From Agromyces bracchium (GTDB taxonomy: Bacteria; Actinomycetota; Actinomycetes; Actinomycetales; Microbacteriaceae), in the NCBI RefSeq assembly GCF_009709675.1, contig NZ_WMLB01000003.1, positions 1 to 64,000 on the forward strand: a stretch of 64,000 bases of DNA, in the 5' to 3' direction. Within the stretch, counting starts at the first letter, position 1. Each line of letters starts with the position of its first letter. The position numbers and the translations under genes were made by a program. This document shows, in pieces, positions 31,808 to 58,852 of the stretch. The notes under the pieces are model-generated. The model searched no databases and had not been told where the DNA came from. It saw nothing but the letters and a program-made list of their open reading frames with translations.

Positions 31808-34800
31808 TCACGCGTGCTCGTAGCGCGCGCGATACGCCGCCGCGACGCCCGGCCAACTGAACTCGGGCACTCGGGCATGACCCGTGCGCGCGAGCCGCGT
31901 TCGGAGTTCGGCATCGTCGTGGATCCGGCGCAGGGCGTCCGCGAGGGCGTCGCGGTCGAGGGGGTCGACGAGGAGCCCGTCGACGCCGTCGTGCACGAAC
32001 TCCGGACCTCCCCCGCGGTTGGTCATGATGAGGGCGGCACGGGCGCGCCAGGCCTCGAGGGCGACGATGCCGAACGGCTCGAGTCGACTTGGAACCGCGA
32101 CCGCGATCGACCGCTGCATCACGTCATCGACCTGCGCGGGGTCGAGGCGGCCGAGGAGTTCGGCACGCCCTTCGAGGCCGAGGTCGGTGATCCGTCGCTC
32201 GATCGTGCCGCGCTCGGGCCCGTCGCCGCCGATGAGGAGTCGCGTGTCGTCGGGGAGTCCGGCATCGGCGAAGGCGTCGAGCAGCAGGTCGAAGCCCTTC
32301 AGGGGGCCGAGGCGGCCGACCGCGGCGAAGTACGCCCGGGGGTCGTCGAGGGCGCTGAGCCGGTGCGCCGGGTCGGGGCGTCCGACGGTCGTCGCGACCC
32401 CGTTCGGCACCACGCTGCCGCCGACCAGACCGTACGACGTGCGCAGCTCGTCGAGCACCCACTCCGATGGTGCGGTGACGAACCGCGCGCGCGCGATCGC
32501 GGCGCGAAGCGCACGCCGAAGCAGGGCGGACCGCGCGAACGCGCCCCGATCGTCGGCCGAGGTCTCGCCGTGCGAGGTCACGGCGATCGGCAGTCGCCAG
32601 AGTCGACCGAGCACGAGCCCGTAGACGCCGTTCGGCCCGAAGCAGTGGACGTGGAGCAGCTCGGGCCGGAACGACCGCCGGGCCCGCGACCACGCGAGCC
32701 AGGCCGAGGGCACGGTGCGAACAAGGGACAGCAACGAGCGGAGGTTGCGGGCCGGCAACGGCGTCGGCAGGTGTCGCACGACGACGCCGTCGACGTCGCG
32801 AGTCCCGAGATGCTCGCCCCGGTCGACCGACCACACCTCGACCACGGTGTCGGGCCGCTGCGAGAGTTCGTGCGCGACTTGGCGGACGTGCTCCTCGACG
32901 CCACCGAAATGCGGGGCGTACGACGACGTGACGAGCGCGATCCTGCGCACGGTCGCGGCGGACTCGCTGCCCGAGGCATCCGCTCGCCGGAATCGCGCCT
33001 CTACCCGCACCGGACCGAGCCGGTAGAGCGCCGCCCGCCGCCGCGCGGCTCGGCCGCGCTCGCCGGGGAGCACGATCGAACGCACCGTCGCGCCGAGCCA
33101 CTGTCCGGCTCGCGCCCACTGCCATCCGGCCGTGCCGAAGTGCTTGCGGAGGAACCGCTCCTGCGAGGCGTGGAAGTGCGCCTCGCGCCGGCGCGGATCG
33201 CCGCCCGTCCCCGCGCCGACGTGCACCGCGCGCGCCTCGGGCACGACCGCGTGCCGCCATCCGAGCCGGTGCGCGCGGTAGGCCCAGTCGGCCTCCTCGG
33301 CGTAGAGGAAGTACTGCTCGTCGAACCATCCCACCTGCTCGAGGGCCTCGGCACGGAGCAGCATGACCGAGCCGATCACGTACGACGGGTCGCGGCGGAG
33401 CCGCGCGAGTCCGAGTGCTTCGAGCCACGTACCCGACGGCGACGGCAGCCACCACTCGACGCGCGCCTCGCGGCCCTCGTCATCGACCTGGGCGGGCCCG
33501 ACGCTCGCGAGGTCGGGGCGCGCGCGCAGCGCGCGGTGCAGCCGTGCGACGTCGTCCACCGAGATCTCGGCGTCGGGGTTCAGCAGCAGCACGTCGGCGC
33601 CGGGCGCGATCCGGTTCGCGAGCCCGTGGTTCACGCCGGCCGCGAAGCCGCCGTTGCGGCCGGGATCGAGGTAGCGCACGCCGAGCTCGTCGCAGAGCTC
33701 GCGGATCGCGGGCAGCGACGAGTTGTCGACGACCGTGACCGGAAGGCCCGCGACCGGCTCGAGCGCGCGACGCAGCAGCTCGGGCGAACCGTAGGCGACG
33801 ACGATGACCTCGAGCGTGGGCGTCGGTTCCGGGGCGACGGATGCCTCGTGCACGATCGAACGGTACAGGTCGAGGTAGTCGCGGCCGACCGCGCCCCAGC
33901 TGCACTCCTCTGCACGTGCGAAGCCGGCCTCTCGCAGCGCCGCGGCGCGCGAGCCGGATGCCTCGACGAGCGCTTCGGCGAGGGCGGCCGCGTCGCCGGT
34001 CGGCACGACGATCCCGGCGCCGCCGACCACGTCGGGGAGAGCGCCCGCGTCGCTCGCGACGACCGGCACGCCGCAGGCCATCGCCTCGATGGCGACCCGG
34101 CCGAACTGCTCCGTCCACGACGGCGTCGGCAGCGAGGGCACGGCGAGCACGTCGAACGAGCGCAGGACCTCGGGGATGTCGGCCGGGTCGACGGCGCCGA
34201 CGAGCTCGACGCGGTCCGAGACGCCTGCGGATGCCGCGCGTTCGGGCAGCTCGGAGGCCAGCGGGCCAGTTCCGGCGACGCGCAGGCGCAGGCGGGGCTC
34301 GCGCGCGAGCGCGTCGAGCAGCAGGAGCAGGCCCTTCTCCGGCACGAGCCGGCCGATGAAGCCCACGGTGATCGGCGGGGCGGGGTCTCGATACGGCGCT
34401 GGCGCGCCTACTCGACCGCCGGGTGCGGTCGCGGCATCCGCCGGCCCTGGAGCATCCGCCGGACGGAACCGCTCGAGGTCGACGCCCAGCGGGATCACGC
34501 GCGCACGGCCGACGAAGCCCTTGTCCTCCGCGATGCGCGCCGCCTCCGAGTTGCAGGCCGAGACGCCCGAGGCGGCGCGGAGCGCCCGCCGCTCGAGCCA
34601 GCGGAACGGGATCGGGTAGCGCTTGCGGAGGTTCTGCGCGGTGTAGAGCACCACAGGCGTGCGACGGGCCCGCTTGCGCAGCGCGCGCAGGAGCAGGATC
34701 TCGGCGGTCGCGAGCGCGAAGGGTTCCTCGTGCACGTCGATGACGTCGAAGTCCCCGCCGAGGGCGCGCCAGAGCGGGATCGGGTCGTAGAGGAAGAGCG

Positions 34801-34993
34801 CCGGATGCCGCCCCAGCGTGCGCACGCCGCGCACTCGCTCGTCGGGGCGGGCCTGCAGCGTCACGGGAGCGCCGCCGGCGTGCCACCGACGGGCGCAGCA
34901 CAGCTCGACGTCGACGCCGAGCGCGGTGAGCGCACGCTCGCGACCGCGCCACTCGTCGACGACGGCACTGTGCGAGACCCTGAGTACGCGCAC
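31808..34993 (-). CDS. three-domain glycosyltransferase, GT4-GT2-GT4 fusion
   Basis: A 1061-residue protein with three complete transferase modules. Residues about 1-390 are GT4 (MRVLRVSHSAVVDEW, donor motif VGFIGRLVPEKGLLLLLDA, EQFGRVAIEAMACGVPVV). Residues about 392-650 are GT2 of rhamnosyl type (LEVIVVAYGSPELLRRAL, VTVVDNSS, ADVLLLNPDAEI, VIGSVMLLRAEALEQVGWFD, FLYAEEADW). Residues about 680-1061 are a second GT4 (IALVTSSYAPHFGGVEEHV, FAAVGRLGPLKGFDLLLDA, EPFGIVALEAWRARAALIM). No membrane segment is present. Such a protein could add three sugars in succession. The ATG follows AGAGGGGG. A palindromic repeat is translated in the linker of the first GT4 (about residues 191-203). It is divergent from the phosphatase at 35074. 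Confidence 0.9.
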   Translation of the reverse strand: MRVLRVSHSAVVDEWRGRERALTALGVDVELCCARRWHAGGAPVTLQARPDERVRGVRTLGRHPALFLYDPIPLWRALGGDFDVIDVHEEPFALATAEILLLRALRKRARRTPVVLYTAQNLRKRYPIPFRWLERRALRAASGVSACNSEAARIAEDKGFVGRARVIPLGVDLERFRPADAPGPADAATAPGGRVGAPAPYRDPAPPITVGFIGRLVPEKGLLLLLDALAREPRLRLRVAGTGPLASELPERAASAGVSDRVELVGAVDPADIPEVLRSFDVLAVPSLPTPSWTEQFGRVAIEAMACGVPVVASDAGALPDVVGGAGIVVPTGDAAALAEALVEASGSRAAALREAGFARAEECSWGAVGRDYLDLYRSIVHEASVAPEPTPTLEVIVVAYGSPELLRRALEPVAGLPVTVVDNSSLPAIRELCDELGVRYLDPGRNGGFAAGVNHGLANRIAPGADVLLLNPDAEISVDDVARLHRALRARPDLASVGPAQVDDEGREARVEWWLPSPSGTWLEALGLARLRRDPSYVIGSVMLLRAEALEQVGWFDEQYFLYAEEADWAYRAHRLGWRHAVVPEARAVHVGAGTGGDPRRREAHFHASQERFLRKHFGTAGWQWARAGQWLGATVRSIVLPGERGRAARRRAALYRLGPVRVEARFRRADASGSESAATVRRIALVTSSYAPHFGGVEEHVRQVAHELSQRPDTVVEVWSVDRGEHLGTRDVDGVVVRHLPTPLPARNLRSLLSLVRTVPSAWLAWSRARRSFRPELLHVHCFGPNGVYGLVLGRLWRLPIAVTSHGETSADDRGAFARSALLRRALRAAIARARFVTAPSEWVLDELRTSYGLVGGSVVPNGVATTVGRPDPAHRLSALDDPRAYFAAVGRLGPLKGFDLLLDAFADAGLPDDTRLLIGGDGPERGTIERRITDLGLEGRAELLGRLDPAQVDDVMQRSIAVAVPSRLEPFGIVALEAWRARAALIMTNRGGGPEFVHDGVDGLLVDPLDRDALADALRRIHDDAELRTRLARTGHARVPEFSWPGVAAAYRARYEHA
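34384..34422. repeat. REP-type palindromic element within a coding sequence
   Basis: GGTCTCGATACG ... CTACTCGACC is the same palindromic element found repeatedly at 42-47 kb and at 58.8 kb. Here it is read as G-G-R-V-G-A-P-A-P-Y-R-D, in the loop between the two Rossmann domains of the first GT4 module. Confidence 0.75.
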
Positions 34994-35073
34994 CGCACCC
35001 CCTCTAGAATCCTTTGCAGAAACCTTATCCGGGGCCCCGCTCCCCGGTCGTGGCGAGCCGGGGGTGATCGCGC

Positions 35074-35802
35074 ATGGATTCCGACGAGTTCCGCGTGCTC
35101 GTGGTCTGCACCGGCAACATCAATCGCTCGGCCCTCGCCGCCGCACTCCTCCGCACCTGGGCCGACTGGTACCTGCCGACGGATGTCGCGGCCCGCGTCG
35201 TGGTCTCGAGCGCCGGTCTCGCGGCGCCAGCGGGCCGGCCCATGCGCAGCCGCACGCGCGTGATCGCCGAGCGGCTCGGCGCCGACGGGCGGTCGCATCG
35301 CGCCGCCCAGGTCGACGAGCGCACGATCCGGCGCGCCGACCTGGTGCTCGCGGCGGACGTCGTCCACCGCGACGGCGTGCTCGGCATCGTGCCGTCGATG
35401 CTGCGGTCGACGTTCACTATTCGCGAAGCGGGTGGAATCGCCGCACGACTGGGTCCGGCACCGGCACCGGCATCGGCCGACGAACTCCGCGACCGGATCG
35501 CCGCTTACAGTCGCCGCCGCGAGCTGGGTGCGGCCAACGACGGCGACATCACCGACCCCCAGGGACGCGACGACGACGCCTACCGCGACATGGCCCGCGA
35601 GGAGGTGCCGCCGTTGACCGCCATCGCCGCGTCGCTGTTCGGGATGCCGGAGGCCGAGGTCGACGCGGTGCTGGCGACGGTCGCGGACCCGGACGCGTTC
35701 CCGTTCGAGGGCCTCGAGCGGCGCGAGGCACCGGGCGGCGGAGCCGCCGGGGCGCCGCCGACCGAACGCCGTCGCCGCTGGTTCGGCAGGCGCACCACGT
35801 GA
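35074..35802 (+). CDS. low-molecular-weight protein-tyrosine phosphatase family protein
   Basis: A 242-residue protein with the active-site loop C12-T-G-N-I-N-R18-S19 (CX5R-S), a conserved S-A-G-L strand, and a downstream D-P acid loop (ITDPQGRDDDAYRDM). Classical enzymes are about 160 residues; this one has about 40 residues inserted before the DP loop and a disordered basic tail rich in Gly, Pro and Arg. In polysaccharide loci such phosphatases dephosphorylate the BY-kinase, which here is encoded 21 kb away at 12257. The GTGA overlap with the next GT4 at 35799-35802 couples translation. Confidence 0.9.
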   Translation: MDSDEFRVLVVCTGNINRSALAAALLRTWADWYLPTDVAARVVVSSAGLAAPAGRPMRSRTRVIAERLGADGRSHRAAQVDERTIRRADLVLAADVVHRDGVLGIVPSMLRSTFTIREAGGIAARLGPAPAPASADELRDRIAAYSRRRELGAANDGDITDPQGRDDDAYRDMAREEVPPLTAIAASLFGMPEAEVDAVLATVADPDAFPFEGLERREAPGGGAAGAPPTERRRRWFGRRTT

Positions 35803-39898: not shown

Positions 39899-41323
39899 TC
39901 AGCCGGCGACGAGCGCGCCGTCGCGCGAGAGGTCGACCTGCTCGTCGCGCGGCACGACCTTCACGCGCTCGCGCGCGACCGGGCCCTCGAATGCCTCACC
40001 GAGCGAGCGCTCGTGCGCGTCGAGGGCGAGCCATCCGGCCCAGGTCGTGAAGCGGATGCCGCGGGCCTCGAGCAGCTCGAGCACCTCGTCGCCGTCGGCC
40101 GCATCGACCGTCGGCGCGACGCCGGGTGCCGCGAGAGCGCCGGCCGAGGCATCCGCCACCAGGTTCGTGATCGTCTCGAGCGCGTCTCCCTTGGTGTGGC
40201 CGATGAGTCCGACGGGGCCGCGCTTGATCCAGCCCGTCGCGTAGACGCCGGCGACGGGGGCGCCGGAGGCATCCGTCACCCGCCCGCCGTCGTTCGGGAT
40301 GACGCGGGCCGACTCGTCGAACGGCACGCCGTCGATCGGCGAGCTCGCGTAGCCGACGGCGCGGTACACGGCCTGTACAGGTACCTCGACGAACTCGCCC
40401 GTGCCCGCGACCGAGCCGTCGCCGACCGGGCGGGTCCGCTCGAAGCGCACCGCCTCCACGGCGTCGGTGCCGAGCACCTCGACGGGCGAGTGGAAGAAGT
40501 GCAGGTGCAGGCGACGGGACGCGGTCGGCTCCCAGTCGGAGGGCTTGCGCCATCCGTTGAGGGTGCGCGTCATGACCTTGACCTGGTTGTTCGTCGCGAG
40601 CAGGTGCGCGGCGTGTTCGTCGCCCTCGGCCCGGTCGAAGTCGTCATCGTAGACCACGATGTCGACGTCGGGCACCTCGCCGAGCTCGCGCAGCTCGATC
40701 GGCGTGAACTTCACCTGCGACGGGCCTCGGCGTCCGAAGACGTGCACGTCGGTGACGGGCGAGGCGAGGAGGCCCGCGTGCACGTTCGCGGGGATGTCGG
40801 TCGAGAGCAGGTCGGCCGGGTGCTTCGCGAGCACGCGCGCCACGTCGAGCGCGACGTTGCCGTTGCCGATGACCGCGATCGACTCGGCCTCGAGCGGCCA
40901 GTCGCGCGGCACGTCGGGGTGGCCGTCGTACCAGGCGACGAGGTCGGCGGCGCCGTACGAGCCGGGCAGGTCGATGCCGGGGATGTCGAGGGGGGCGTCC
41001 TTCAGCGCGCCCGTGGCGAAGATCACGGCGTCGTAGCGCTCGCGGAGCTCGTCGACCGTGACGTCGCGACCCACCTCGACGTTGCCGATGAGGCGGATCG
41101 TGCCCTCGTCGAGCATCTCGTGCAGCGAGTTCACGATGCCCTTGATGCGCGGGTGGTCGGGCGCGACGCCGTAGCGGATCAGGCCGTACGGCGCGGGCAG
41201 CGACTCGAACAGGTCGATCGCGACCTGCCCGCCGGCCTCGTCGACCTGGCGGCGCAGGATGTTGCCCGCGTAGATGCCGGCGGGGCCGGCGCCGACGATC
41301 GCGACACGGAGGTGGAGGGTCAT
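39899..41323 (-). CDS. fprA: ferredoxin--NADP(+) reductase (adrenodoxin reductase type)
   Basis: A 474-residue flavoprotein. The N-terminal FAD site is VAIVGAGPAGIYAGNIL, then APYGLIRYGVAPDHPRIKG. The NADP site is VIGNGNVALDVARVL, with RRGPSQVKFT, and the C-terminal FAD-contact region is GVYATGWIKRGPVGLIGHTK. It resembles mycobacterial FprA and would pass NADPH electrons through ferredoxin to the sulfite reductase encoded at the head of this minus-strand cluster. ATG 41323 is fixed by the first Rossmann strand. It lies 60 bases after cobA and may have its own ribosome loading. Confidence 0.93.
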   Translation of the reverse strand: MTLHLRVAIVGAGPAGIYAGNILRRQVDEAGGQVAIDLFESLPAPYGLIRYGVAPDHPRIKGIVNSLHEMLDEGTIRLIGNVEVGRDVTVDELRERYDAVIFATGALKDAPLDIPGIDLPGSYGAADLVAWYDGHPDVPRDWPLEAESIAVIGNGNVALDVARVLAKHPADLLSTDIPANVHAGLLASPVTDVHVFGRRGPSQVKFTPIELRELGEVPDVDIVVYDDDFDRAEGDEHAAHLLATNNQVKVMTRTLNGWRKPSDWEPTASRRLHLHFFHSPVEVLGTDAVEAVRFERTRPVGDGSVAGTGEFVEVPVQAVYRAVGYASSPIDGVPFDESARVIPNDGGRVTDASGAPVAGVYATGWIKRGPVGLIGHTKGDALETITNLVADASAGALAAPGVAPTVDAADGDEVLELLEARGIRFTTWAGWLALDAHERSLGEAFEGPVARERVKVVPRDEQVDLSRDGALVAG

Positions 41324-41382
41324 GAGGGCATGGCCTTTCGAAGGGGAGTGCGGGGAGGGTCTGGGCACGGGTGGACGGTCGG

Positions 41383-42291
41383 TCAGTCGAGGGCCGGCGG
41401 TGCCGTGAGGGCGGATGCCGCGAGCTCGGCGGGCGCGTACGGACTCAGCCGCACCACGTCGCCGACCACCACGACCGCGGGCGACCGCACGCCCCGCGCC
41501 GCCGCCTGGTGTGCGATCGTGCCGAGCGTGCCGATCGTCACTCGTTGGCGAGGGCCGTATCCATCCTCCACGATCGCGACGGGGCAGTCGGCACCGCGCT
41601 CGCCGCGGGCGAGCGTGATCGCGGAGTTCGCGAGCGTGCCCACGCCCATGAGCAGCACGACCGTGTGGTCGCGCCCGCCGCCGAGCGACTGGATCTGGTC
41701 GTGGCCGGTGACGACGGTGAACGTCGTCGCGAGCCCGCGGTGGGTGAGCGGGATGCCCGCGATCGCGGGTACCGACACCGCGCTCGTGATGCCGGGCACG
41801 ACCTCGACGTCGACGCCGCGCTCGCGGCAGTAGGCGAGCTCTTCACCGCCGCGACCGAAGACGTACGGGTCGCCGCCCTTCAGCCGCACGACACGCTTGC
41901 CGTCGCGGGCCAACGTCACGAGCAACTCGTTGATCGCGTCCTGCGGCACGGCGTGGTGGCCCGGCAGCTTGCCGACATCGACGACCTCGGCGCGAAGCTC
42001 GACCCCCTCGGCGGCGAGGCCGTCGAGCACCGAGCGGGCGCCGAGACGGTCGGCGACGATCACGTCGGCCGCTTCGAGCGCGCGGAGGCCGCGCAGCGTG
42101 AGCAGTCCGGGGTCGCCGGGGCCCGCGCCGACGAGTGCGACGTGGCCCTTCCGGTCGTCTCCGGTGGTCGAGTAGCGAGCGTCAGCGAGCGTATCGAGAC
42201 CTGGTGCGTCGGTCTCGATACGCGCCTGCGGCGCTACTCGACCACCGGGGAGCTCCGGCGCTACTCGACCACCGGGGATGTTCTCGGTCAT
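41383..42291 (-). CDS. cobA: uroporphyrinogen-III C-methyltransferase, with translated palindromic-repeat N-terminus
   Basis: A 302-residue SAM-dependent enzyme making precorrin-2, the siroheme precursor needed by sulfite reductase. The core begins at about residue 50 with GHVALVGAGPGDPGLLTLRG, then VIVADRLG, VRLKGGDPYVFGRGGEE and GIPLTHRG. Usual CobA/SUMT proteins are about 250 residues. Here residues 1-48 come from palindromic repeats read in frame (P-G-G-R-V-A-P-x2-R-I-E-T, G-L-D-T). ATG 42291 overlaps the permease stop (ATGA). Confidence 0.93.
   Translation of the reverse strand: MTENIPGGRVAPELPGGRVAPQARIETDAPGLDTLADARYSTTGDDRKGHVALVGAGPGDPGLLTLRGLRALEAADVIVADRLGARSVLDGLAAEGVELRAEVVDVGKLPGHHAVPQDAINELLVTLARDGKRVVRLKGGDPYVFGRGGEELAYCRERGVDVEVVPGITSAVSVPAIAGIPLTHRGLATTFTVVTGHDQIQSLGGGRDHTVVLLMGVGTLANSAITLARGERGADCPVAIVEDGYGPRQRVTIGTLGTIAHQAAARGVRSPAVVVVGDVVRLSPYAPAELAASALTAPPALD
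42161..42275. repeat. composite REP-type palindromic element, translated in cobA
   Basis: Arms at 42161-42201 (GGTGGTCGAGTAGC ... GTATCGAGACC) and 42211-42248 (GGTCTCGATACG ... CTACTCGACCACCGG), plus a partial arm at 42253-42275. All lie inside the first 48 codons of cobA. Confidence 0.85.
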
Positions 42292-43256
42292 GGGGTTCCT
42301 CCCGTGAGTCCGCGGCGGCGCAGCATCCCGCGCTCGACCGGGGCGAAGACGAGCAGCTCGATCACGACGCCGATGGCGAGGATCACGAGGATCGTGCCGA
42401 GCACGCTCGCGAGGTCGGCGAGGTCGCGGCCCTGCTGCAGCAGCGAGCCGACGCCGAAGCCGATCGACCCGCCGAACGCGATGATCTCGGCCGCCATGAG
42501 CGAGCGCCACGAGAACGCCCACCCCTGCTTGAGGCCGGCGAGATACCCGGGCAGGGCGGCCGGCAGCACGACGGATGCCGCGAGCTCGAAGCGCGACGCG
42601 CCGAGCACGGTGCCGACCCGGCGCAGCTGCGGCGGCACCTGGGCGACGCCCGCGACGAGTCCGTTCACGATCGACGGGATCGCGCCCATGAGCACGACGA
42701 AGTACACCGTGGCATCCGAGAGCCCGAACCAGAGGATCGCGGCGGGCACCCACGCGACCGACGGCAGCACCTGCAGGCCCGAGATGAGCGGGCCGAGGGC
42801 CCGACGGAGCGGCGCCCATTCGGCGAGCAGCAGACCGAGCGGCGTGCCGACGGCGACCGCGATGAGGAAGCCGAGGACGCCGCGCTCGAGGCTCGTCGAG
42901 ATGGCGAGCTGCAGGCGGCCGTCGTCCCACGCCTCCCCGAGTGCGGCCGCGACGTCGAGCGGGCCGGGTGCGAGGTCGGGGCGCGGCTGCGCGATGACCG
43001 TGTACGCCTGCCAGGCCGCGACCAGGACGACGAGCAGCAGCACGGGCGGCAGGACGCCGTCGATCGCGCGGCGCCACCACGGGGTGCGGCGCTCGGCGGT
43101 CGTCTGCAGCCGGTCGAGGCCGGCCATCTCCGTGTCGAGATCACGGCCCGTTGGTCGAGTAGGACCCGAAGGGCCCGTATCGAGACCCGGCGAGGGGGTC
43201 TCGATACGCTCGCTGTCGCTCGCTACTCGACCGGCGGGGAGCACATCATGCGGCAT
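42288..43256 (-). CDS. ABC transporter permease (sulfonate/taurine/nitrate type), extended N-terminus
   Basis: A 322-residue permease. The N-terminal 60 residues are hydrophilic and largely repeat-encoded (GRVASDSERIETPSPGLDT). Six membrane segments follow, from VLPPVLLLVVLVAAWQA, with the EAA-like loop AALPGYLAGLKQGWAFSWR and the late AEIIAFGGSIGFG. It is SsuC/TauC-like. In this sulfate-assimilation context it probably imports sulfonates or sulfate. The start lies within the last codons of the ATPase gene (11-base overlap) and the stop overlaps cobA. Confidence 0.88.
   Translation of the reverse strand: MPHDVLPAGRVASDSERIETPSPGLDTGPSGPTRPTGRDLDTEMAGLDRLQTTAERRTPWWRRAIDGVLPPVLLLVVLVAAWQAYTVIAQPRPDLAPGPLDVAAALGEAWDDGRLQLAISTSLERGVLGFLIAVAVGTPLGLLLAEWAPLRRALGPLISGLQVLPSVAWVPAAILWFGLSDATVYFVVLMGAIPSIVNGLVAGVAQVPPQLRRVGTVLGASRFELAASVVLPAALPGYLAGLKQGWAFSWRSLMAAEIIAFGGSIGFGVGSLLQQGRDLADLASVLGTILVILAIGVVIELLVFAPVERGMLRRRGLTGGTP
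43151..43238. repeat. composite REP-type palindromic element, translated in the permease gene
   Basis: Two arms, 43151-43187 (TTGGTCGAGTAGG ... GTATCGAGACC) and 43197-43238 (GGTCTCGATACG ... CGCTACTCGACC), sit in the first 40 codons of the permease gene. Confidence 0.85.
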
Positions 43257-43995
43257 TGCGGCGGATCTCCCTTCGCAGGTGCTCGGTGATCTCGACCGAG
43301 AGCTCGGACACGGTGGGCGACTCGATGCGTCGGGGGCCGTCGTCGGCGATGCGCCACTCGTTCACGATGCGGCCCGGGCGGCTCGACATGAGCAGCACGC
43401 GCTGCCCGAGTCGCGCCGCCTCGCGCACGTTGTGCGTGACGAACACGATCGTGCGGCCCGTCTCGCGCCAGACGCGCTCGAGCTCCTCGTGCAGCAGGTC
43501 GCGCGTGATGGCGTCGAGCGCGGCGAACGGCTCGTCCATGAGCAGCACCGAGCGGTCCTGCGCGAGGGCGCGCGCGAGCGCGACACGCTGCCGCATGCCG
43601 CCGGAGAGCTCGTGCGGGCGCTTGTCGGCGGCATCCGCGAGGTGCACGAGGTCGAGCAGTTCGAGCGCGCGGGCACGGCGCGCGGGTCGCGCGAGGCCGG
43701 CGTCGCCGAAGCGCAGCGCGAGCTCGACGTTGCGCCGGGCGCTGAGCCACGGCAGCAGCGACGCCTCCTGGAACATGACCGCGGCGCGGCCGTCGACCTC
43801 GATCGTGCCGGTGCTCGGCTGCTCGAGGCCGGCGATGAGTGAGAGGAGCGTCGACTTGCCGCAGCCCGACGCGCCGAGCAGGCACGCGAACTCGCCCGGT
43901 GCGACCGAGAGGTCGATCCCGTCGAGCACGACCGGGCCGTCGGCGGCGTACTGCTTGCCGACGCCGGTGAGGCGGATGGCGGGTGCCGCGGTCAT
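43246..43995 (-). CDS. ABC transporter ATP-binding protein (SsuB/TauB type)
   Basis: A 249-residue ATPase with Walker A GASGCGKST, Q-loop MFQEASLLPW, signature LSGGMRQR, Walker B VLLMDEPFAALD and the switch His in VFVTHNVREA. The Q-loop sequence and length are typical of sulfonate, taurine and nitrate importers. ATG 43995 overlaps the stop of the binding-protein gene (ATGA). No palindromic repeat is inserted here, unlike its neighbours. Confidence 0.92.
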   Translation of the reverse strand: MTAAPAIRLTGVGKQYAADGPVVLDGIDLSVAPGEFACLLGASGCGKSTLLSLIAGLEQPSTGTIEVDGRAAVMFQEASLLPWLSARRNVELALRFGDAGLARPARRARALELLDLVHLADAADKRPHELSGGMRQRVALARALAQDRSVLLMDEPFAALDAITRDLLHEELERVWRETGRTIVFVTHNVREAARLGQRVLLMSSRPGRIVNEWRIADDGPRRIESPTVSELSVEITEHLRREIRRNAA

Positions 43996-45098
43996 CGCGC
44001 ACCCCCGTCCAGTCCGGCGGCGTCGATCGGGTCGAGCCCGGAGCCGGCTCGGACGGCGTCGAGCGGCCCGAGGTCGAGGATGCCGGCGAGGTCGCCGCCC
44101 TCCGCGGTCCCGGCCGCGACGGCGTTCCGCTGGAGCACGGGCAGCGTGGCCGCGAACGGATCCACCGTGGGCGCGACGTGCGCGAGCGCACGCTCGAGCA
44201 CGGCGTCGGGCAGCGGAGCGCCTGCGTCGGCCGCCAGCCGTGCGTTCACGAGGGCCGGCACCTCGTCGGGGTGCGCCGAGATCCAATCGACGGATGCCGC
44301 GTGCCCGGCGACGAGCGCCGCGACCGCGTCGGGGTGCGCCTCGAGGTACTCGGCGCGCACGACGAGCAGCGTCGTCGGGAACGCGCCGCCCGGCCAGAGG
44401 TCCGCTTCGTCGACGAGCACGTTCGCGCCCGCCTCGATGACGAGCCGTGACGCCCACGGCTCCGGCAGCCACGCACCGTCGATCGCGCCGGTCGTGAACA
44501 ACTGGAGCGTGCGCGCGTTCTCGGTCGGCACGATGTCGACGTCGCCGCCGCCGGTCGGCGAGGTCTCGAGGCCGTGGTCGGCGAGCCAGGTGCGGAGCGC
44601 GACGTCCTGCGTGTTGCCGAGTTGGGGCGTCGCGAGCGTCGCGCCCCGGAGGTCGTCGGCGTCGTCGATGCCATCGCGCACGACCAGTGCGGCACCTCCG
44701 CCGACGGCGCCCGCGACGATCCGGAGCGAGCTGCCGCCCGACTGCACGAAGCTGTTGATCGCCGGGCTCGGGCCGAGGTATGCGGCATCGATCGCGCCGG
44801 CGCTCAGCGCCTCGACGGCGGCCGGACCGGCGTTGAACGCCTGCGGCTCGAGTGCGGTCCCGCCGAGCTCGTCGGCGATGGCGCCGGTCTCGAGGCCGAC
44901 GAGCGCGGGCAGGTGCGTGACGTTGGCGAAGTAGCCGAGGCGGAGGGCGGAGGCATCCGTCGCCCCTGCGGCCCCCGGGCCCTCGGCGGCCGCGCGCCCG
45001 ACCGATCCGATCACCACGGGCACGATGACGATCGCCGCGGCGACCGCGACGCCGGCGACGAGTTCGCCGAGCTGTGCACCGAGCCCGCGGCCGGTCAC
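43992..45098 (-). CDS. ABC transporter substrate-binding protein (SsuA/NrtA-like)
   Basis: A 368-residue exported protein. It has an N-terminal membrane anchor or signal (LVAGVAVAAAIVIVPVVIG, residues about 12-30) without a lipobox cysteine, then the NMT1/SsuA-like fold: LRLGYFANVTHLPALVGLETG, DAAYLGPSPAINSFVQSGG, DDLRGATLATPQLGNTQDVAL and GAWLPEPWASRLV. The N-T-Q-D motif is typical of sulfonate/nitrate binding proteins; sulfur oxyanions or sulfonates are expected from the operon. GTG 45098 overlaps the cysN stop (GTGA). Confidence 0.9.
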   Translation of the reverse strand: MTGRGLGAQLGELVAGVAVAAAIVIVPVVIGSVGRAAAEGPGAAGATDASALRLGYFANVTHLPALVGLETGAIADELGGTALEPQAFNAGPAAVEALSAGAIDAAYLGPSPAINSFVQSGGSSLRIVAGAVGGGAALVVRDGIDDADDLRGATLATPQLGNTQDVALRTWLADHGLETSPTGGGDVDIVPTENARTLQLFTTGAIDGAWLPEPWASRLVIEAGANVLVDEADLWPGGAFPTTLLVVRAEYLEAHPDAVAALVAGHAASVDWISAHPDEVPALVNARLAADAGAPLPDAVLERALAHVAPTVDPFAATLPVLQRNAVAAGTAEGGDLAGILDLGPLDAVRAGSGLDPIDAAGLDGGAR

Positions 45099-46540
45099 GC
45101 CGTCGACTCCACGACGATGCCGGCGGCGAGGGTCGCGCCGTCCTGCGGGTGGATGACGAGGAACGCCCCCGCACGGCGGTGCGCGGCGTACGGCTCGGCG
45201 GCGAGGTCGGCCGCGAGCTTCAGGCGGACGAGCCCGATGTCGTTCGTCGCGAGCGACGCGGTCGGCGTCGTCTCGAGCGTGTCGAGGTCGAGGCGCCCGC
45301 GGATGTCGGTGACGATCGCCTGAACGGTCGTGGTGCCGTGCTTCACGAGCACGCGCGCACCCGTCGTGAGCGGACGCCCGTCGAGCTGGAACACGTCGGC
45401 GTCGAGTTCGCGCCGCGGCGCGGGAAGCGACCCGGCCGCCGCGATCACCGCGCCGCGCGCGGCGTCGACGGGGTCGGCGAGTTCGAGCGCGACCGAGAGC
45501 GGGGCGGATGCCTCGGCGAGCGCCTCGGACCCGCGGCGGATGCCCGTGACCGTCGTCCGCACGCCGGCGGGGAATACCTCGACCGGGTCGCCGACCGTCA
45601 CCGTGCCCGACTCGATGCGGCCCGCGAACGCCCGGTGGTCGCGGAAGTCCTCCACCGGTGGTCGAGTAGCACCGGAGGCGCGTACCGAGACCTCCGGTGC
45701 CGACAGCTCGGGCGACAGCCCGCCCTGCGGGCGAATCACGAGCTGCACGGGCAGGCGGAGCGCTTCGAGGTCGGTCTCGAGCTCGTCGATCGTGCTCAGC
45801 TCCTCGAGCAGCTCGAGGAGCGACGGCCCGTCGTACCAGGGCGTGTTCGCCGAGCGCTCGACCACGTTGTCGCCCGCGAGCGCCGAGACCGGGATGACGT
45901 GCGCGTCGGGCAGGCCGAGGTCGCGCGCGAGCGCGGCGACCTCCGCCGCCACGGACTCGAACGCGGCGCGGTCGTAGCCGACGAGGTCGATCTTGTTCAC
46001 CGCGACGATCACGTGCGGCACGCGCAGCAGCTGCACGACCGCGAGGTGCCGGCGGGTCTGCTCGAGCACGCCGTTGCGCACGTCGACGAGCACGACGACC
46101 GCGTCGGCCGTGGCCGAGCCCGTGACCATGTTGCGCGTGTACTGCACGTGGCCGGGGCAGTCGGCAAGGATGAACGACCGCCGGCCGGTCGTGAAGTAGC
46201 GGTAGGCGACGTCGATCGTGATGCCCTGCTCGCGCTCCGCACGCAGCCCGTCGGTGAGCAGCGCGAAGTCGATCGCGCCGGGCTCGCCGCCGAAGCCGCG
46301 CTCGGCTGAGGTGCGCGCGACCGACTCGAGCTGGTCGGCGAGGATCGCCTTCGAGTCGTGCAGCAGGCGGCCGACGAGCGTCGACTTGCCGTCGTCGACC
46401 GAGCCGGCGGTCGCGAAACGGAACAGCGTGCCCGTGGGTCGAGTAGGACGCGAAGCGCCCGTATCGAGACCCGTTCGCGCGATTGAGGTCTCGATACGCT
46501 CGCTGGCGCTCGCTACTCGACCACCGGTGTGCTCGCTCAT
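45095..46540 (-). CDS. cysN: sulfate adenylyltransferase subunit 1 (GTPase), with two translated palindromic inserts
   Basis: A 481-residue regulatory GTPase of ATP sulfurylase. The G domain has Walker A GSVDDGKST (46-54), switch II ADCPGHVQYTRNM and the base motif NKIDLVG. EF-Tu-like domains II and III follow (FRDHRAFAGRIESGTVTVGD). Residues 5-37 are encoded by a palindromic repeat (GGRVASASERIET, GLDTGASRPTRPTG). A second repeat adds about 18 residues (SAPEVSVRASGATRPPVE) before the conserved FRDHRAF strand of domain II. No fused APS-kinase domain. ATG 46540 overlaps the cysD stop. Confidence 0.94.
   Translation of the reverse strand: MSEHTGGRVASASERIETSIARTGLDTGASRPTRPTGTLFRFATAGSVDDGKSTLVGRLLHDSKAILADQLESVARTSAERGFGGEPGAIDFALLTDGLRAEREQGITIDVAYRYFTTGRRSFILADCPGHVQYTRNMVTGSATADAVVVLVDVRNGVLEQTRRHLAVVQLLRVPHVIVAVNKIDLVGYDRAAFESVAAEVAALARDLGLPDAHVIPVSALAGDNVVERSANTPWYDGPSLLELLEELSTIDELETDLEALRLPVQLVIRPQGGLSPELSAPEVSVRASGATRPPVEDFRDHRAFAGRIESGTVTVGDPVEVFPAGVRTTVTGIRRGSEALAEASAPLSVALELADPVDAARGAVIAAAGSLPAPRRELDADVFQLDGRPLTTGARVLVKHGTTTVQAIVTDIRGRLDLDTLETTPTASLATNDIGLVRLKLAADLAAEPYAAHRRAGAFLVIHPQDGATLAAGIVVESTA
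45655..45699. repeat. REP-type palindromic element inside cysN domain II
   Basis: CCGGTGGTCGAGTAGC ... CGTACCGAGACCTCCGGTG is inserted in frame before the FRDHRAF strand. Its arms have drifted somewhat (TACCGAGACC instead of TATCGAGACC), suggesting an older insertion than those at the gene starts. Confidence 0.7.
46434..46527. repeat. composite REP-type palindromic element at the cysN start
   Basis: Arms 46434-46472 and 46487-46527, the second ending CTACTCGACCACCGG, lie within codons 5-37 of cysN. Confidence 0.85.
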
Positions 46541-47577
46541 CAGAAGTACCCGTCCTTCTTGCGATCCTCCATGGCCGCCTCGGACAGGCGGTCGTCGGCG
46601 CGGGTCGCGCCGCGTTCGGTGAGGGTGGATGCCGCGACCTCGCGCACGATGTCCGTCACCGTGGCCGCATCCGAGACGACCGCGCCGGTGCAGCTCAGGT
46701 CGCCCACGGTGCGGTAGCGGACGGTGCGGCGCTCGACCGTCTCGCCGGCGCGCGGCGCCGAGACGTCGCTCACCGCGAGCCACATGCCGTCGCGCGCATA
46801 CACGTCGCGCTCGTGCGCGAAGTACAGCGGCGGCAGCGCGATGCCCTCGCGCTCGATGTAGCGCCACACGTCGAGCTCGGTCCAGTTCGAGATCGGGAAC
46901 GCGCGCACGTGCTGTCCGACCGTGTGCCGGCCGTTGTAGAGCGTCCAGAGCTCCGGCCGCTGGTTGCGCGGGTCCCACTGGCCGAACTCGTCGCGCAGCG
47001 AGATGATGCGCTCCTTGGCGCGCGCCTTGTCCTCGTCGCGGCGGGCGCCGCCGAAGACCGCGTCGTGCCGGCCGGCCGCGATCGCGTCGAGCAGCGGTTG
47101 GGTCTGCAGCGGGTTCCGCGTGCCGTCGGCACGCTCCTGCAGGCGGCCGTCGTCGAGGTAGTCCTGCACCGAGGCGACCTCGAGACGGATGCCGAGTCGC
47201 TCGACGGTCTCGTCGCGGAACCGCAGCACCTCGGGGAAGTTGTGGCCGGTGTCGACGTGCAGCACCGGGAACGGGACCTTCGCGGGCCAGAACGCCTTGG
47301 TCGCCAGGTGCAGCACGACGACGGAGTCCTTGCCGCCCGAGAAGAGCAGGACCGGACGCTCGAACTCGGCGACGACCTCGCGGATCACGTGGATCGCCTC
47401 GGCCTCGAGCACGTCGAGGGCGTCGAGCCTCTCGGCGGTCGAGTAGGACGCGCCAGCGCCCGTATCGAGACCTTGCACACGGGCGGTCTCGATACGCGCC
47501 TCCGGTGCTACTCGACCACCGGGGATTGGCTCGCCGGCGCTCGCTACTCGACCACCGGGGATGATGCTCTCGGTCAT
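46540..47577 (-). CDS. cysD: sulfate adenylyltransferase subunit 2, with translated palindromic N-terminus
   Basis: A 345-residue catalytic subunit that forms APS from sulfate and ATP. The PP-loop is SGGKDSVVVLHLA (SGGKDS at 80-85). Further hallmarks are VLHVDTGHNFPEVL, RRDEDKARAKERIIS, and the terminal segment with DDRLSEAAMEDRKKDGYF. Family proteins are about 300 residues; here residues 8-48 are repeat-derived (GGRVAS, GGRVAPEARIET, GLDTG). ATG 47577 overlaps the cysH stop. Confidence 0.95.
   Translation of the reverse strand: MTESIIPGGRVASAGEPIPGGRVAPEARIETARVQGLDTGAGASYSTAERLDALDVLEAEAIHVIREVVAEFERPVLLFSGGKDSVVVLHLATKAFWPAKVPFPVLHVDTGHNFPEVLRFRDETVERLGIRLEVASVQDYLDDGRLQERADGTRNPLQTQPLLDAIAAGRHDAVFGGARRDEDKARAKERIISLRDEFGQWDPRNQRPELWTLYNGRHTVGQHVRAFPISNWTELDVWRYIEREGIALPPLYFAHERDVYARDGMWLAVSDVSAPRAGETVERRTVRYRTVGDLSCTGAVVSDAATVTDIVREVAASTLTERGATRADDRLSEAAMEDRKKDGYF
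47435..47558. repeat. triple-arm REP-type palindromic element at the cysD start
   Basis: Arms at 47435-47472, 47485-47522 and 47531-47558 carry the GGTCGAGTAG / TATCGAGACC or inverse signatures. Together they occupy most of codons 7-48 of cysD. Confidence 0.85.
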
Positions 47578-48329
47578 AGGTGCAACCCGCATTCCGTCTT
47601 GGCGAGGCCGGCCCAGCGGCCGGACCTCGGGTCCTCGCCCGCGGCGACGGGCTTCGTGCACGGCTCGCAGCCGATGGAGGGGTAGCCGTGCGACATCAGG
47701 AGGTTGACGGGCACCTGGTGCGCGCCCGCGTAGTCGAGGAGGTCGTCGAACGTCCAGGCCGCGACGGGGTTGACCTTCACGAGTCCGTTCCGCTCGTCGT
47801 ACGTGACGAGCGGGGTGAGCGTGCGCGTCGGCGCCTCATCTCGGCGGACGCCCGTGAACCACACCTCGTACCCGCCGAGCGAGCGCTGCAACGGCTCGAC
47901 CTTGCGGCGCGCGCAGCACAGCGCGGGGTCGCGGGCGAACAGCTCTGCGCCGAACTCCGCGTCCTGTTCGGCGACGGTCTGCTCGGGCAGCACGTCGACC
48001 ACGCGCACGTCGAGCTGCCGGGCGACCTCGTCGCGCGTGACGGTCGTCTCGGCGAAGTGGTAGCCGGTGTCGAGGAACAGGACGTCGACACCGGGCAGGT
48101 GCTGAGCCACCAGGTGGGGGAGCGCGGCGTCGGCCATCGAGCAGGCGACGGCCGCGGCATCCGTTGCGAAGTTCGCCGCGACCCACGCGACGACCTCGGC
48201 GGGGGATGCCTCGTGGTCGGTCAGGCTGCCGAGCGCCGCGTTGCCGGCCTCGGCGAGGGCGCGGAGCTCGTCGGCCGAGCGGCGAACGGTGGACCGGGTG
48301 GAAGCCACCCCGATGTTGCGCGCGCTCAT
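47574..48329 (-). CDS. cysH: adenylyl-sulfate (APS) reductase, 4Fe-4S type
   Basis: A 251-residue PAPS/APS reductase family enzyme. Core motifs are VLFLDTGYHFAETTVTRDEV, FTGVRRDEAPTR and the C-terminal redox ECGLHL. The cysteine pairs CCARRK and GCEPC are the [4Fe-4S] ligands that mark the APS-using type, consistent with the absence of an APS kinase (cysC) in the operon. It converts APS to sulfite and AMP with thioredoxin. ATG 48329 overlaps the sulfite reductase stop. Confidence 0.94.
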   Translation of the reverse strand: MSARNIGVASTRSTVRRSADELRALAEAGNAALGSLTDHEASPAEVVAWVAANFATDAAAVACSMADAALPHLVAQHLPGVDVLFLDTGYHFAETTVTRDEVARQLDVRVVDVLPEQTVAEQDAEFGAELFARDPALCCARRKVEPLQRSLGGYEVWFTGVRRDEAPTRTLTPLVTYDERNGLVKVNPVAAWTFDDLLDYAGAHQVPVNLLMSHGYPSIGCEPCTKPVAAGEDPRSGRWAGLAKTECGLHL

Positions 48330-50095
48330 CGGAGCGACTCCTCGTCGGCGCGGTGCGCCCACTGGGCGAACGTCTCATCGGCCGCCGCATCACGCTCGTC
48401 GAGGAACCTCGTCACCACGCGCGAGACGTAGTCGGCGATGCCGTCGGCCGTGACCTTGAGGCCGCGCACGGTGCGACCCAGTCCGGCTTCATCCCGGTCC
48501 TGCGACGCGAGTCCGCCGCCGAGGTGCACCTGGTAGCCGGGCACCTGCTCGCCGTCGATCGTGACGAGCTGGCCCTTCAAGCCGATGTCGGCGGTCTGGA
48601 TGCGCGCGCACGAGTTGGGGCATCCGTTCACGTGCAGGCTGATCGGGTGCGGCAGGTCGAAGGCGTCGAGCCGCTCCTCGAGGTCGAGTACTGCCGCCGT
48701 GGCGAACGCTTTCGTCTCGACGATCGCGAGCTTGCAGAACTCGATGCCCGTGCACGCGATCGTGCCGCGGCGGATGAGGCTCGGCCGCGCCTGAAGCCCG
48801 AGCTCGTCGAGGCCCGCGATGAGCGACTCGACGCGGTCCTCGGGGATGTCGAGGATGACGACCTTCTGGTGCGGCGTCGTGCGCAGGCGCGTCGAGCCGT
48901 GCGCCTCGACGAGCTCGGCGAGCTTCGTCAGCGTCGGGCCGGAGACGCGGCCGACGATGGGCGTCGCGCCGACGTAGAACCGGCCGTCCTTCTGCCGGTG
49001 CACGCCGACGTGGTCGCCGGTCGTCACGGGCGTCGGCGCGGCCGGGCCATCCGGGAGGGCGTACCCGAGGTACTCGGTCTCGAGCACCTCGCGGAACTTC
49101 GGGGCGCCCCAGTCGGCCAGCAGGAACTTCAGGCGCGCCTTGTTGCGAAGCCGCCGGTAGCCGTAGTCGCGGAAGATCTGCGCGACGCCGTGCCAGGCGT
49201 CGGCGACGCGGTCGGGGGCGACGAACACGCCGAGTCGCTCGGCGAGGCGAGGCGCCGTCGAGAGCCCGCCGCCGACCCACAGGTCGTATCCGACGCCGAG
49301 CGTCGGGTGCTCGACCGCGACGAACGCGACGTCGTTGATCTCGTGCACGACGTCCTGGCTGGGGTGGCCGGTGATCGCCGACTTGAACTTGCGCGGCAGG
49401 TTCGCGAGCGACTCGTCGCCGATGAACCGCGAGGTGATCTCGTCGATCTGCGGGGTCGGGTCGATGAGCTCGTCGGCGGCGATGCCCGCGACCGGGGAGC
49501 CGAGGACGACGCGCGGCACGTCGCCGCACGCCTCGGTCGTGCCGAGGCCGACCGCCTCGAGCCGGCGCCAGATCTCGGGGACGTCCTCGACGCGGATCCA
49601 GTGCAGCTGGACGTTCTGCCGATCGGTGAGGTCGGCGGTGTCGCGGCCGAACTCGGTCGAGATGCCGCCGATGACCCGCAGCTGCTCGGTCGTCAGCTGC
49701 CCGCCGTCGATGCGGACGCGCAGCATGAAGTACTCGTCCTCGAGCTCGTGCGGCTCGAGGGTCGCGGTGCGACCGCCGTCGATGCCGGGCTTGCGCTGCG
49801 TGTAGAGGCCCCACCAGCGGAACCGGCCGTGCAGGTCCGTCGGGTCGATCGACGCGAAGCCGCCGTCGGCGTAGATCCGCTCGATGCGCTCGCGCACCGC
49901 GAGGCCGCCGTCGGCCTGCTTCCACTCCTCGTTCGCGTTGAGCGGGGCCGTGCCGTCGACCTTCCACTGCCCGTTCGGCTTCGCCGAGGGGCGGGGCGGG
50001 CGGATGTCGCGGGCCGGCCGATCAGCGCGCGCGGGACGCTCGGCGCGCTCGGTCCGCGGCGCGCGCGTCGCGGCATCCGTCGTCTCGATCGTCAC
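48326..50095 (-). CDS. sir: assimilatory sulfite reductase (ferredoxin; NirA/Sir type)
   Basis: A 589-residue siroheme/[4Fe-4S] enzyme reducing sulfite to sulfide. Two ferredoxin-like repeats (FMLRVRIDGGQLTTEQLRVI, GVHRQKDGRFYVGATPIVGR) and the cofactor ligands CTGIEFC and GCPNSC are intact. A disordered Arg/Pro-rich N-terminal stretch of about 35 residues precedes the fold. GTG 50095 is selected over longer frames by an excellent GAGGAGGGG about eight bases upstream. It is the first gene of the operon, followed by cysH, cysD, cysN, the ABC genes and cobA through four-base overlaps. Confidence 0.94.
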   Translation of the reverse strand: MTIETTDAATRAPRTERAERPARADRPARDIRPPRPSAKPNGQWKVDGTAPLNANEEWKQADGGLAVRERIERIYADGGFASIDPTDLHGRFRWWGLYTQRKPGIDGGRTATLEPHELEDEYFMLRVRIDGGQLTTEQLRVIGGISTEFGRDTADLTDRQNVQLHWIRVEDVPEIWRRLEAVGLGTTEACGDVPRVVLGSPVAGIAADELIDPTPQIDEITSRFIGDESLANLPRKFKSAITGHPSQDVVHEINDVAFVAVEHPTLGVGYDLWVGGGLSTAPRLAERLGVFVAPDRVADAWHGVAQIFRDYGYRRLRNKARLKFLLADWGAPKFREVLETEYLGYALPDGPAAPTPVTTGDHVGVHRQKDGRFYVGATPIVGRVSGPTLTKLAELVEAHGSTRLRTTPHQKVVILDIPEDRVESLIAGLDELGLQARPSLIRRGTIACTGIEFCKLAIVETKAFATAAVLDLEERLDAFDLPHPISLHVNGCPNSCARIQTADIGLKGQLVTIDGEQVPGYQVHLGGGLASQDRDEAGLGRTVRGLKVTADGIADYVSRVVTRFLDERDAAADETFAQWAHRADEESLR

Positions 50096-57766: not shown

Positions 57767-58816
57767 ATGACCGACCCGCAGCCGGCCATCCGGCTCACCG
57801 GACTCACCAAGGAGTTCGGAGCCGTCACCGCCGTCGACCACGTCGATCTCGAGATCGCCGCGGGCGAGTTCTTCTCCATGCTGGGCCCCTCGGGGTCGGG
57901 CAAGACCACCGTGCTCCGGCTCATCGCGGGCTTCGAGCAGCCCACGGGCGGCACGATCGAGCTCTTCGGCGACGACGTCACCAAGCGCGCGCCGTTCGAC
58001 CGCGACGTCAACACGGTCTTCCAGGACTACGCGCTGTTCCCGCACATGAGCGTGCTCGAGAACGTCGCCTACGGCCTCCGCGTTCGCGGCATCGGCCGGA
58101 AGGAGCGCATCGAGCGGGCGCGCCGGGCCCTCGCGTCGGTCCGGCTCGAGCAGATGGGCGACCGGAAGCCCTCGCAGCTCTCCGGCGGCCAGCGCCAGCG
58201 CGTCGCGCTCGCCCGCGCCACGGTCGTCCAGCCCAAGGTGCTGCTCCTCGACGAGCCCCTGGGCGCGCTCGACCTGAAGCTCCGCGAGCAGATGCAGGTC
58301 GAGCTGAAGGAGATCCAGCGCGAGCTCGGCATCACCTTCATCTTCGTCACGCACGACCAGGAGGAGGCGCTCACGCTCTCCGACCGCGTCGCGGTCTTCA
58401 ACAACGGGCGCATCGAGCAGCTCGGCACGCCCGCCGAGCTCTACGAGCGGCCCTCGTCGCGTTTCGTCGCCGACTTCGTCGGCACGTCGAACCTCTTCGA
58501 CGACGCGGTCTCGCGCGAGCTGCTCGGCCGCGGGGGCGTGCACTCCGTGCGCCCCGAGAAGATGTCGGTCGGCTCGGGCGAGACCGGCGCCGACGTGCGC
58601 AACGCCCCGGGCACCGTCGTCGAGACGATCTACCTCGGCAGCGGCATCCGCCTCGTCGTCGACCTCGACGCCGGGGTGCGCGTCAGCGTGCTCGAGCAGA
58701 ACGACCGCAACCGGGTCCACGACGACGAACGCGGCGACCGCGTCGTCGTCAGCTGGCACGACGACGACGTCGTCGCGCTGGGCGGGGCGGATGTCGCATC
58801 CGCGCCGGCCGCCTAG
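57767..58816 (+). CDS. potA: ABC transporter ATP-binding protein (spermidine/putrescine type)
   Basis: A 349-residue ATPase with Walker A GPSGSGKTT, Q-loop VFQDYALFPHMSVLENV, signature LSGGQRQR, Walker B VLLLDEPLGALDLKLRE and a C-terminal TOBE-like domain (SVRPEKMSVGSGETG, IYLGSGIRLVVDLDAG). This is the PotA layout. ATG 57767 is preceded by AAGGAGAGG. First gene of the plus-strand operon potA-D-B-C. Its stop codon overlaps the start of a palindromic repeat. Confidence 0.93.
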   Translation: MTDPQPAIRLTGLTKEFGAVTAVDHVDLEIAAGEFFSMLGPSGSGKTTVLRLIAGFEQPTGGTIELFGDDVTKRAPFDRDVNTVFQDYALFPHMSVLENVAYGLRVRGIGRKERIERARRALASVRLEQMGDRKPSQLSGGQRQRVALARATVVQPKVLLLDEPLGALDLKLREQMQVELKEIQRELGITFIFVTHDQEEALTLSDRVAVFNNGRIEQLGTPAELYERPSSRFVADFVGTSNLFDDAVSRELLGRGGVHSVRPEKMSVGSGETGADVRNAPGTVVETIYLGSGIRLVVDLDAGVRVSVLEQNDRNRVHDDERGDRVVVSWHDDDVVALGGADVASAPAA

Positions 58817-58852
58817 GTCTCGATACGGCCCTGCGGGCCTACTCGACCACCG
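58816..58852. repeat. REP-type palindromic element after potA
   Basis: GGTCTCGATACGGCCC/GGGCCTACTCGACC forms an imperfect hairpin between potA and the binding-protein gene. It is the only copy of this element in the window that lies outside coding sequence, and it may act as an mRNA stability or attenuation element. Confidence 0.8.

Follow-up and report, generated by a model that had tools for sequence, protein, structure and literature searches.

Protein-coding palindromes were reportedly described in Rickettsia by Ogata et al. in 2002. Repetitive extragenic palindromic (REP) sequences can also lie inside genes; passages of PMC3733652 describe intragenic REPs and REP dimers in Opitutus, Rickettsia, Xanthomonas and others that code for 20-30 or more residues, and place a REP at about the same site of recB in two Xanthomonas species. 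Small mobile sequences of enterobacteria that are found inside genes are reportedly the subject of PMC2759123. The present work deals with short palindromic repeats at the beginning of contig 23 of an Agromyces genome of 4.16 Mb (the first 64 kb, a stretch called the window throughout), where they lie in frame at the starts of four genes of a cys-ssu-cobA operon. These elements probably constitute a REP-like palindromic repeat family of Microbacteriaceae, called family A, whose copies are tolerated in frame in protein linkers and loops. A limited search of the titles and abstract openings of open-licence papers returned no description of such elements in Microbacteriaceae.

Repeat pairs in the cys-ssu-cobA operon

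Exact units of the form GGTCGAGTAG-N(4-30)-TATCGAGACC occur ten times in the window, against a mean of 0 in 100 shuffles. Eight of the ten make up four head-to-head pairs, 78-86 nt long, that fall within the first 50 codons of cysD (47437-47517), cysN (46437-46522), the ssuC-like permease gene (43153-43232) and cobA (42166-42243). An earlier note on this DNA had placed palindrome arms at these four gene fronts, which is confirmed by the exact pairs, and had listed an internal copy in cysN, which is present on the plus strand at 45660..45692 with one mismatch and is read on the minus strand as VSVRASGATRP. The four genes are not consecutive, as had been stated; they are four of six, the ssuA-like and ssuB-like genes lying between cysN and the permease gene.

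Pattern matching divides each pair into a plus-strand and a minus-strand arm. The cysD pair is composed of units of 36 nt (47437..47472, plus) and 33 nt (47485..47517, minus), and the cysN pair of units of 35 nt (46437..46471, plus) and 36 nt (46487..46522, minus). The arms in the permease gene measure 35 nt (43153..43187, plus) and 36 nt (43197..43232, minus), and those in cobA 36 nt (42166..42201, plus) and 33 nt (42211..42243, minus). A lone 5' tag, the half unit GGTCGAGTAGC, is found on the minus strand nearer to the start of cysD (47543..47553) and of cobA (42260..42270).

The proteins carry extensions of 52, 36, 40 and 48 residues (CysD, CysN, permease and CobA, respectively) ahead of their conserved cores. 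The family profiles begin after these extensions, at residue 54 for CysD (TIGR02039), 49 for CobA (TIGR01469) and 41 for CysN (TIGR02034), and the chains of PDB 1zun align from residues 48 (CysD) and 39 (CysN) onwards.

Occupied and empty sites in relatives

The nearest relatives by CysD (G028 and others) show 97-98% identity, and the window genome is close to Agromyces luteolus (G028). CysD of A. binzhouensis (G011) and of two further genomes (G024 and G031) has a core that is 97-98% identical and is devoid of the repeat. The CysN loop, which sits between two stretches aligned to PDB 1zun (residues 272 and 302), measures 72 nt in the window versus 39 nt in these three genomes. Similarly, the loop of HutH (histidine ammonia-lyase) has 78 nt in the own genome versus 45 nt in G024 and A. 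binzhouensis. Each of these two differences equals exactly one 33-nt unit. The nearly identical repeat-free CysD proteins and the unit-sized loop differences support the in-frame insertion of palindromic elements put forward earlier. With respect to relatives that might share the N-termini without palindromic DNA, what is found instead are relatives whose nearly identical proteins lack the palindromes. A. luteolus shares the cysD and cobA repeats, and its CysN loop (36 nt) is without a repeat. Among 19 named loci around cysD, family A tags are present in A. luteolus only.

Other species carry two further families, B (GGTTGAGGAG...TCTCGAAACC) and C (GGTCGAGGAG...TCTCGAGACC), at the fronts of cysD, cysN, ssuC and cobA, and also in the loops of HutH, the SNF2 helicase and CysN. 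Thus, the same places are occupied recurrently. It could be argued that each site received one old insertion, inherited and often lost, and that A, B and C represent one old element altered or recombined in place. Identical positions are indeed occupied in many species, the window genome and A. luteolus clearly share cysD and cobA alleles, and the three families have one architecture. However, occupancy differs between close relatives, and B/C units are abundant in most genomes in which B or C occupies these sites (118 in G012, 134 in G019, 84 in G044, 119 in G049 and 245 in G059, G007 having only 15), while the window genome is A-rich (85 A units versus one B/C unit). Against recurrence, A tags stand in ssuC of G045 and G019 and in cobA of G048 and G012, which carry there the family that is rarer in their own genomes (A versus B/C units: 3/31, 42/134, 7/14 and 106/118 in G045, G019, G048 and G012, respectively). 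Taken together, a single old insertion per site is an unlikely explanation. At the ssuC-like start of G048 (L071) there is also an in-frame palindrome-like motif coding for LVEPVETT, perhaps another repeat family.

The loops remain readable at all loci that could be scored. Their lengths are multiples of three without a stop in 20 of 20 HutH loci and in 19 of 19 scorable SNF2 loci (the SNF2 set has 20 loci, L148 being unscored since its upstream flank is absent). Arms can be amplified to either side of the palindrome centre; for instance, the SNF2 loop is 150 residues long in G058 (L151) and 87 in A. luteolus (L147). The CysD extension of A. luteolus comprises 106 residues, and amplified arrays reach 450 nt.

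Translation of the repeats

The four starts were compared in 44 operons (the own one included), which come from 44 of the 54 genomes with CysD. This comparison covers 150 of 176 possible junctions (44 operons by four starts), the remaining 26 being left out because DNA for the gene was missing from the locus, no upstream gene could be located or the alignment fell short of the core start. In 149 of the 150 junctions the conserved core is in frame with a start codon located at most 15 nt from the stop of the upstream gene, and the offset of this codon is identical for nearly all rows of a given gene. The exception is cysN of G040 (L111), in which the end of cysD and the start of cysN are tandemly duplicated. 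Exact A or B tags are present at 38 junctions (12 in cysD, five in cysN, 15 in ssuC and six in cobA), and all 38 keep the reading frame from the coupled start. The frame used is the single open forward frame in 24 of them, and two frames are open in the other 14. The mean extension amounts to 51 residues with a tag versus 17 without, eight untagged cysD rows having been counted five residues too long (ATG preferred over an overlapping GTG).

No ATG, GTG or TTG occurs from the last tag to core residue 10 in 26 of the 38 tagged junctions. Because of this, and because the frame is kept from the coupled start in every case, the in-gene repeats are very probably translated, as judged from sequence. 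The opposite view, that the repeats are untranslated leaders and the true start lies downstream, is contemplated for many N-terminal REPs in passages of PMC3733652. It finds some basis in the window, in an in-frame ATG of the permease gene and a GTG of cysD, three residues inside the core; in addition, the upstream coupled starts of element-bearing genes also lack a Shine-Dalgarno sequence (cysD 12/12, cysN 5/5 and cobA 3/6). However, the junctions without any candidate start include cysN and cobA of the window, and a downstream start with a Shine-Dalgarno sequence is found in 0/38. The frame is kept in 38/38 although 24 have one open frame, and a leader cannot account for gene-internal sites. 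A downstream start, which the earlier note had named as a possible outcome, was rejected or at least weakened on these grounds, and untranslated leaders are highly improbable.

Hairpins at overlapping starts could also be regulatory and tune translation, for instance by making initiation dependent on the ribosome of the upstream gene. The elements stand directly after overlapping starts, the predicted mRNA structure from +1 to +150 is stronger with the element (mean -73.6 versus -66.5 kcal/mol), and the lack of a Shine-Dalgarno sequence at element-bearing cysD and cysN starts would fit such a role. Predicted accessibility of the start is, however, not lowered (0.47 with the element versus 0.40 without when pooled), and per gene there is no consistent difference (with/without element: 0.55/0.51, 0.49/0.51, 0.49/0.52 and 0.46/0.39). 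Closure of the start codon by the hairpin was rejected or at least weakened, since pooled accessibility is slightly higher with the element, and RNA structure at the start codons therefore finds no support as a function. Moreover, any one start is element-free in most relatives, and elements of the same kind occur mid-protein elsewhere. A regulatory role is accordingly quite unlikely, and tolerated in-frame repeats are the reading followed below.

Copies inside and outside genes in the own genome

Exact units number 85 in the own genome, 54 of them distinct; they measure 30-41 nt and are distributed over 66 sites, and the reversed pattern does not occur. Coding calls were made with a codon model that, for 59 of 60 left-out windows, gave the true frame the top rank; it was used to score the flanks at each of the 66 sites, and 25 sites plus the four operon sites were examined in detail. 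By our own count 13 of the 66 sites lie inside genes and in frame, so that the repeats are mostly outside genes. These 13 comprise the four operon fronts and sites in HutH, a Clp ATPase, the SNF2 helicase, a LysE-type exporter and a glycosyltransferase. One open reading frame (ORF) that combines phosphotransferase and class-III aminotransferase domains holds two more, and the remaining two lie at the N-terminal end of a protoporphyrinogen oxidase and near the end of an ABC-F-like ATPase. The 37 sites scored by their flanks only show no frame-coherent coding on both sides, a result that leaves room for a few more cases. The TAG inside GGTCGAGTAG terminates the upstream reading frame at four of the 25 sites examined in detail (L005, L082, L084 and L093), rendering C-termini such as ...VVE.

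Seven contig ends of this genome (G000) also have an exact unit no more than about 70 nt away, namely the starts of C3, C9 and C33 and the ends of C3, C16, C28 and C36. The repeats thus probably break the assembly, and the 85 units are likely an undercount.

Reading frame of the tags

The 5' tags of family A are read in a nearly constant phase. Coding occurrences in the own genome give GRV for GGTCGAGTAG in 16/16 and GLD for GGTCTCGATA in 7/7. Phase 0 is used at the junctions of the genus by 30/30 GGTCGAGTAG and 20/21 GGTCTCGATA tags, and in the HutH and SNF2 loops by 9/9 and 10/10, respectively; these own-genome, junction and loop sets overlap. The 3' tags of the own genome are spread over frames (6, 3 and 3 for TATCGAGACC, 4 and 5 for CTACTCGACC) because unit length varies between 30 and 41 nt. 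Consequently, the single frame G-G-R-V-A...R-I-E-T...G-L-D-T that had been claimed for all copies holds for the exact 5' tags but neither for the 3' tags nor for the degenerate cysN unit.

Other phases are used by family C (phase 2 in four of seven GGTCGAGGAG loop tags), by family B (phase 1) and by the degenerate cysN unit (phase 1). Insertion itself is therefore not phase-locked, and a strict mechanical frame lock was rejected.

Structure of the repeat unit

The family A unit has about 35 nt and is composed of GGTCGAGTAG, a variable hairpin stem and GTATCGAGACC, its ends being fixed by the search pattern; it occurs singly or head to head. The inner part varies yet stays complementary, with 83% of stem positions paired versus 60% in shuffles. 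In a simple fold, a GNA or GNNA loop closes 63 of the 85 units (200 shuffles: mean 7.3, maximum 13), and several of the other 22 appear to have such a loop in a shifted register. GNA and GNNA loops are unusually stable in DNA. The complementary stems and these loops suggest that the form recognised is single-stranded DNA; complementarity between the arms could also be maintained by template switching during replication. Folded as DNA, the four window pairs are far better than shuffles (z from -4.0 to -5.9).

CCGGT is usual on the 5' side of the unit, and its 3' side is without a conserved boundary. GTAG occupies unit positions 7-10, and its GTA is unpaired in the predicted fold, enclosed by an outer TCGA/TCGA pairing. 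A known RNA family was rejected as the identity of the element: a Rfam scan of window positions 40500-48500 gave two matches at E up to 1, both to miRNA families and far below the gathering score.

Distribution and the search for a mobilizing enzyme

Exact units are present in 43 of 60 genomes of the same genus. In an even draw across Microbacteriaceae, 73 of the 299 genomes carry them, spread over 32 of the 85 genera, with a maximum of 627 in G104. Same-orientation arrays with a spacing of about 100-110 nt, unlike the window pairs, occur in G005 (C1, 515331-515786 and 2116105-2116688). Among the viral contigs of IMG/VR, 29 stretches (L241-L269) contain an exact unit, which may stem from prophages, host contamination or carriage by phages.

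A Y1 transposase of the REP-associated tyrosine transposase (RAYT) type was rejected or at least weakened as the mover, no match being found in 60 congeneric genomes and 15 further unit-rich genomes of the family. The control with the same profile, PF01797, gave a match in five of 14 named genomes (E. coli and four of the other 13). Y2_Tnp (PF04986) is absent from 18 of 18 genomes but from 14 of 14 controls as well, and this search is hence uninformative.

Several observations weigh against a mobile REP-like family that is merely tolerated in proteins. No mover was found, Y1_Tnp being absent from the own genome, from 60 of 60 genomes of the genus and from 20 of 20 unit-rich genomes (five of the same genus and 15 further in the family). 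Comparison of the flanks around the units revealed no target site. Alignment with relatives, suggested earlier as a way to see precise insertion, yields differences of exactly one unit in the CysN and HutH loops, but occupied and empty versions also differ in the sequence flanking the loop, and an insertion exact to the base, with a target site, is not seen. Single units fold as DNA no better than shuffles in three of four cases (z of 0.02, 0.04, -1.84 and -0.46), and the 38 tagged junctions are not independent of one another. Finally, tolerance alone does not explain the near-exclusive phase of family A, for the unit could equally be read in a second one: phase 2 is free of stops in 85/85 forward units and nearly equal in codon-likeness (-0.54 versus -0.51), and it would encode Ser-Ser (Trp-Ser-Ser with the usual flank). 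This bias might most simply reflect selection on the peptide.

A probable origin of the N-terminal tails

The most likely course of events is the following. Repeats would spread genome-wide and then disappear from most coding DNA, which would leave the minority of sites seen in genes. Copies landing in a gene would persist only if the frame is kept and the protein tolerates the added residues. Tolerant places would be the variable N-terminal linker, between the start codon and the conserved domain, and variable loops; N-terminal linkers vary between genera in any case. As the overlapping genes of the operon leave no intergenic room, the lasting places near gene borders would be these linkers. 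The ribosome would read the repeat into a presumably near-neutral tail, 36-52 residues long in the window and up to 106 in A. luteolus. The cys-ssu-cobA operon would thus have been seeded repeatedly, in different Agromyces species, by different palindrome families.

A broader proposal can be made tentatively, and we regard it as rather doubtful: the elements may be a RAYT-free REP-like class of stable single-stranded DNA hairpins, moved by an unknown machine and acting as a recurrent generator of protein sequence across Microbacteriaceae. Different families would then independently seed the same coupled starts and loops, and both arms would subsequently amplify in step.

Organization of the operon and other units in the window

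The gene order on the minus strand is cysH-cysD-cysN-ssuA-like-ssuB-like-ssuC-like-cobA. The first gene, cysH (47574..48362), is 3'-phosphoadenosine 5'-phosphosulfate (PAPS)-reductase-like, was named by gene order and has a stop that overlaps the cysD start (ATGA). The small subunit of sulfate adenylyltransferase is encoded by cysD (46540..47577), with a conserved core from about residue 53, and the large subunit by cysN (45095..46540), which starts at a TGATG shared with the cysD stop. The genes for the ssuA-like substrate-binding protein (43992..45098) and the ssuB-like ABC ATPase (43246..43995) are both without an exact unit. They are followed by the ssuC-like ABC permease gene (42288..43256) and by cobA (41383..42291), which encodes uroporphyrinogen-III C-methyltransferase.

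Outside the operon, the glycosyltransferase ORF (31811-35119, minus strand) contains an exact unit in frame at 34384..34417 (minus strand). Another exact unit, at 58816-58848, is flanked by two ORFs, one ABC transporter ATPase-like and the other substrate-binding-like, and is read as extragenic.

Comparison with known palindromic elements

The earlier note compared these repeats with Rickettsia palindromic elements, and the likeness holds at the level of behaviour. As described in part of PMC10969869, palindromes of Rickettsia also stand in frame in unrelated genes, are read as protein and form several families per genus. Those elements are about 150 bp long, according to the same part, whereas the units described here have 30-41 nt and their pairs about 80 nt, shorter than the range of about 100-150 bp for Rickettsia palindromic elements. 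A further difference is that the present host is a free-living-type actinobacterium in which the starts of one operon are struck recurrently by different families.

The second comparison concerns GTAG-tagged REPs and REPINs (REP doublets forming hairpins). Passages of PMC3733652 describe short GTAG palindromes that form head-to-head dimers, are mostly extragenic with some copies in genes, and end neighbouring genes with the TAG of the repeat, all of which is seen here. In contrast with those passages, GTAG is internal and not terminal in the Agromyces unit, the flanking TCGA also pair, and the stems vary widely within one genome. Unlike REPs served by a REPIN/RAYT system, the repeats occur here in a genus and family in which Y1_Tnp was found in 0/60 congeneric and 0/15 further genomes. 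The intragenic REPs treated in PMC3733652 also differ, as far as those passages go, from a situation in which four starts of one operon and three loops are occupied recurrently in one genus, with differing families at one site. A word search for 'actino' in the main text of PMC3733652 gave no match.

The locus thus offers apparent protein-coding palindromes in Actinobacteria together with dozens of sequenced relatives that provide occupied and empty versions of the same operon, which makes a selfish-palindrome origin of protein sequence directly testable. It also separates abundant REP-like repeats from RAYT transposases, to which the movement of such repeats is attributed. The phenomenon is of the same kind as that of Rickettsia palindromic elements and intragenic REPs.

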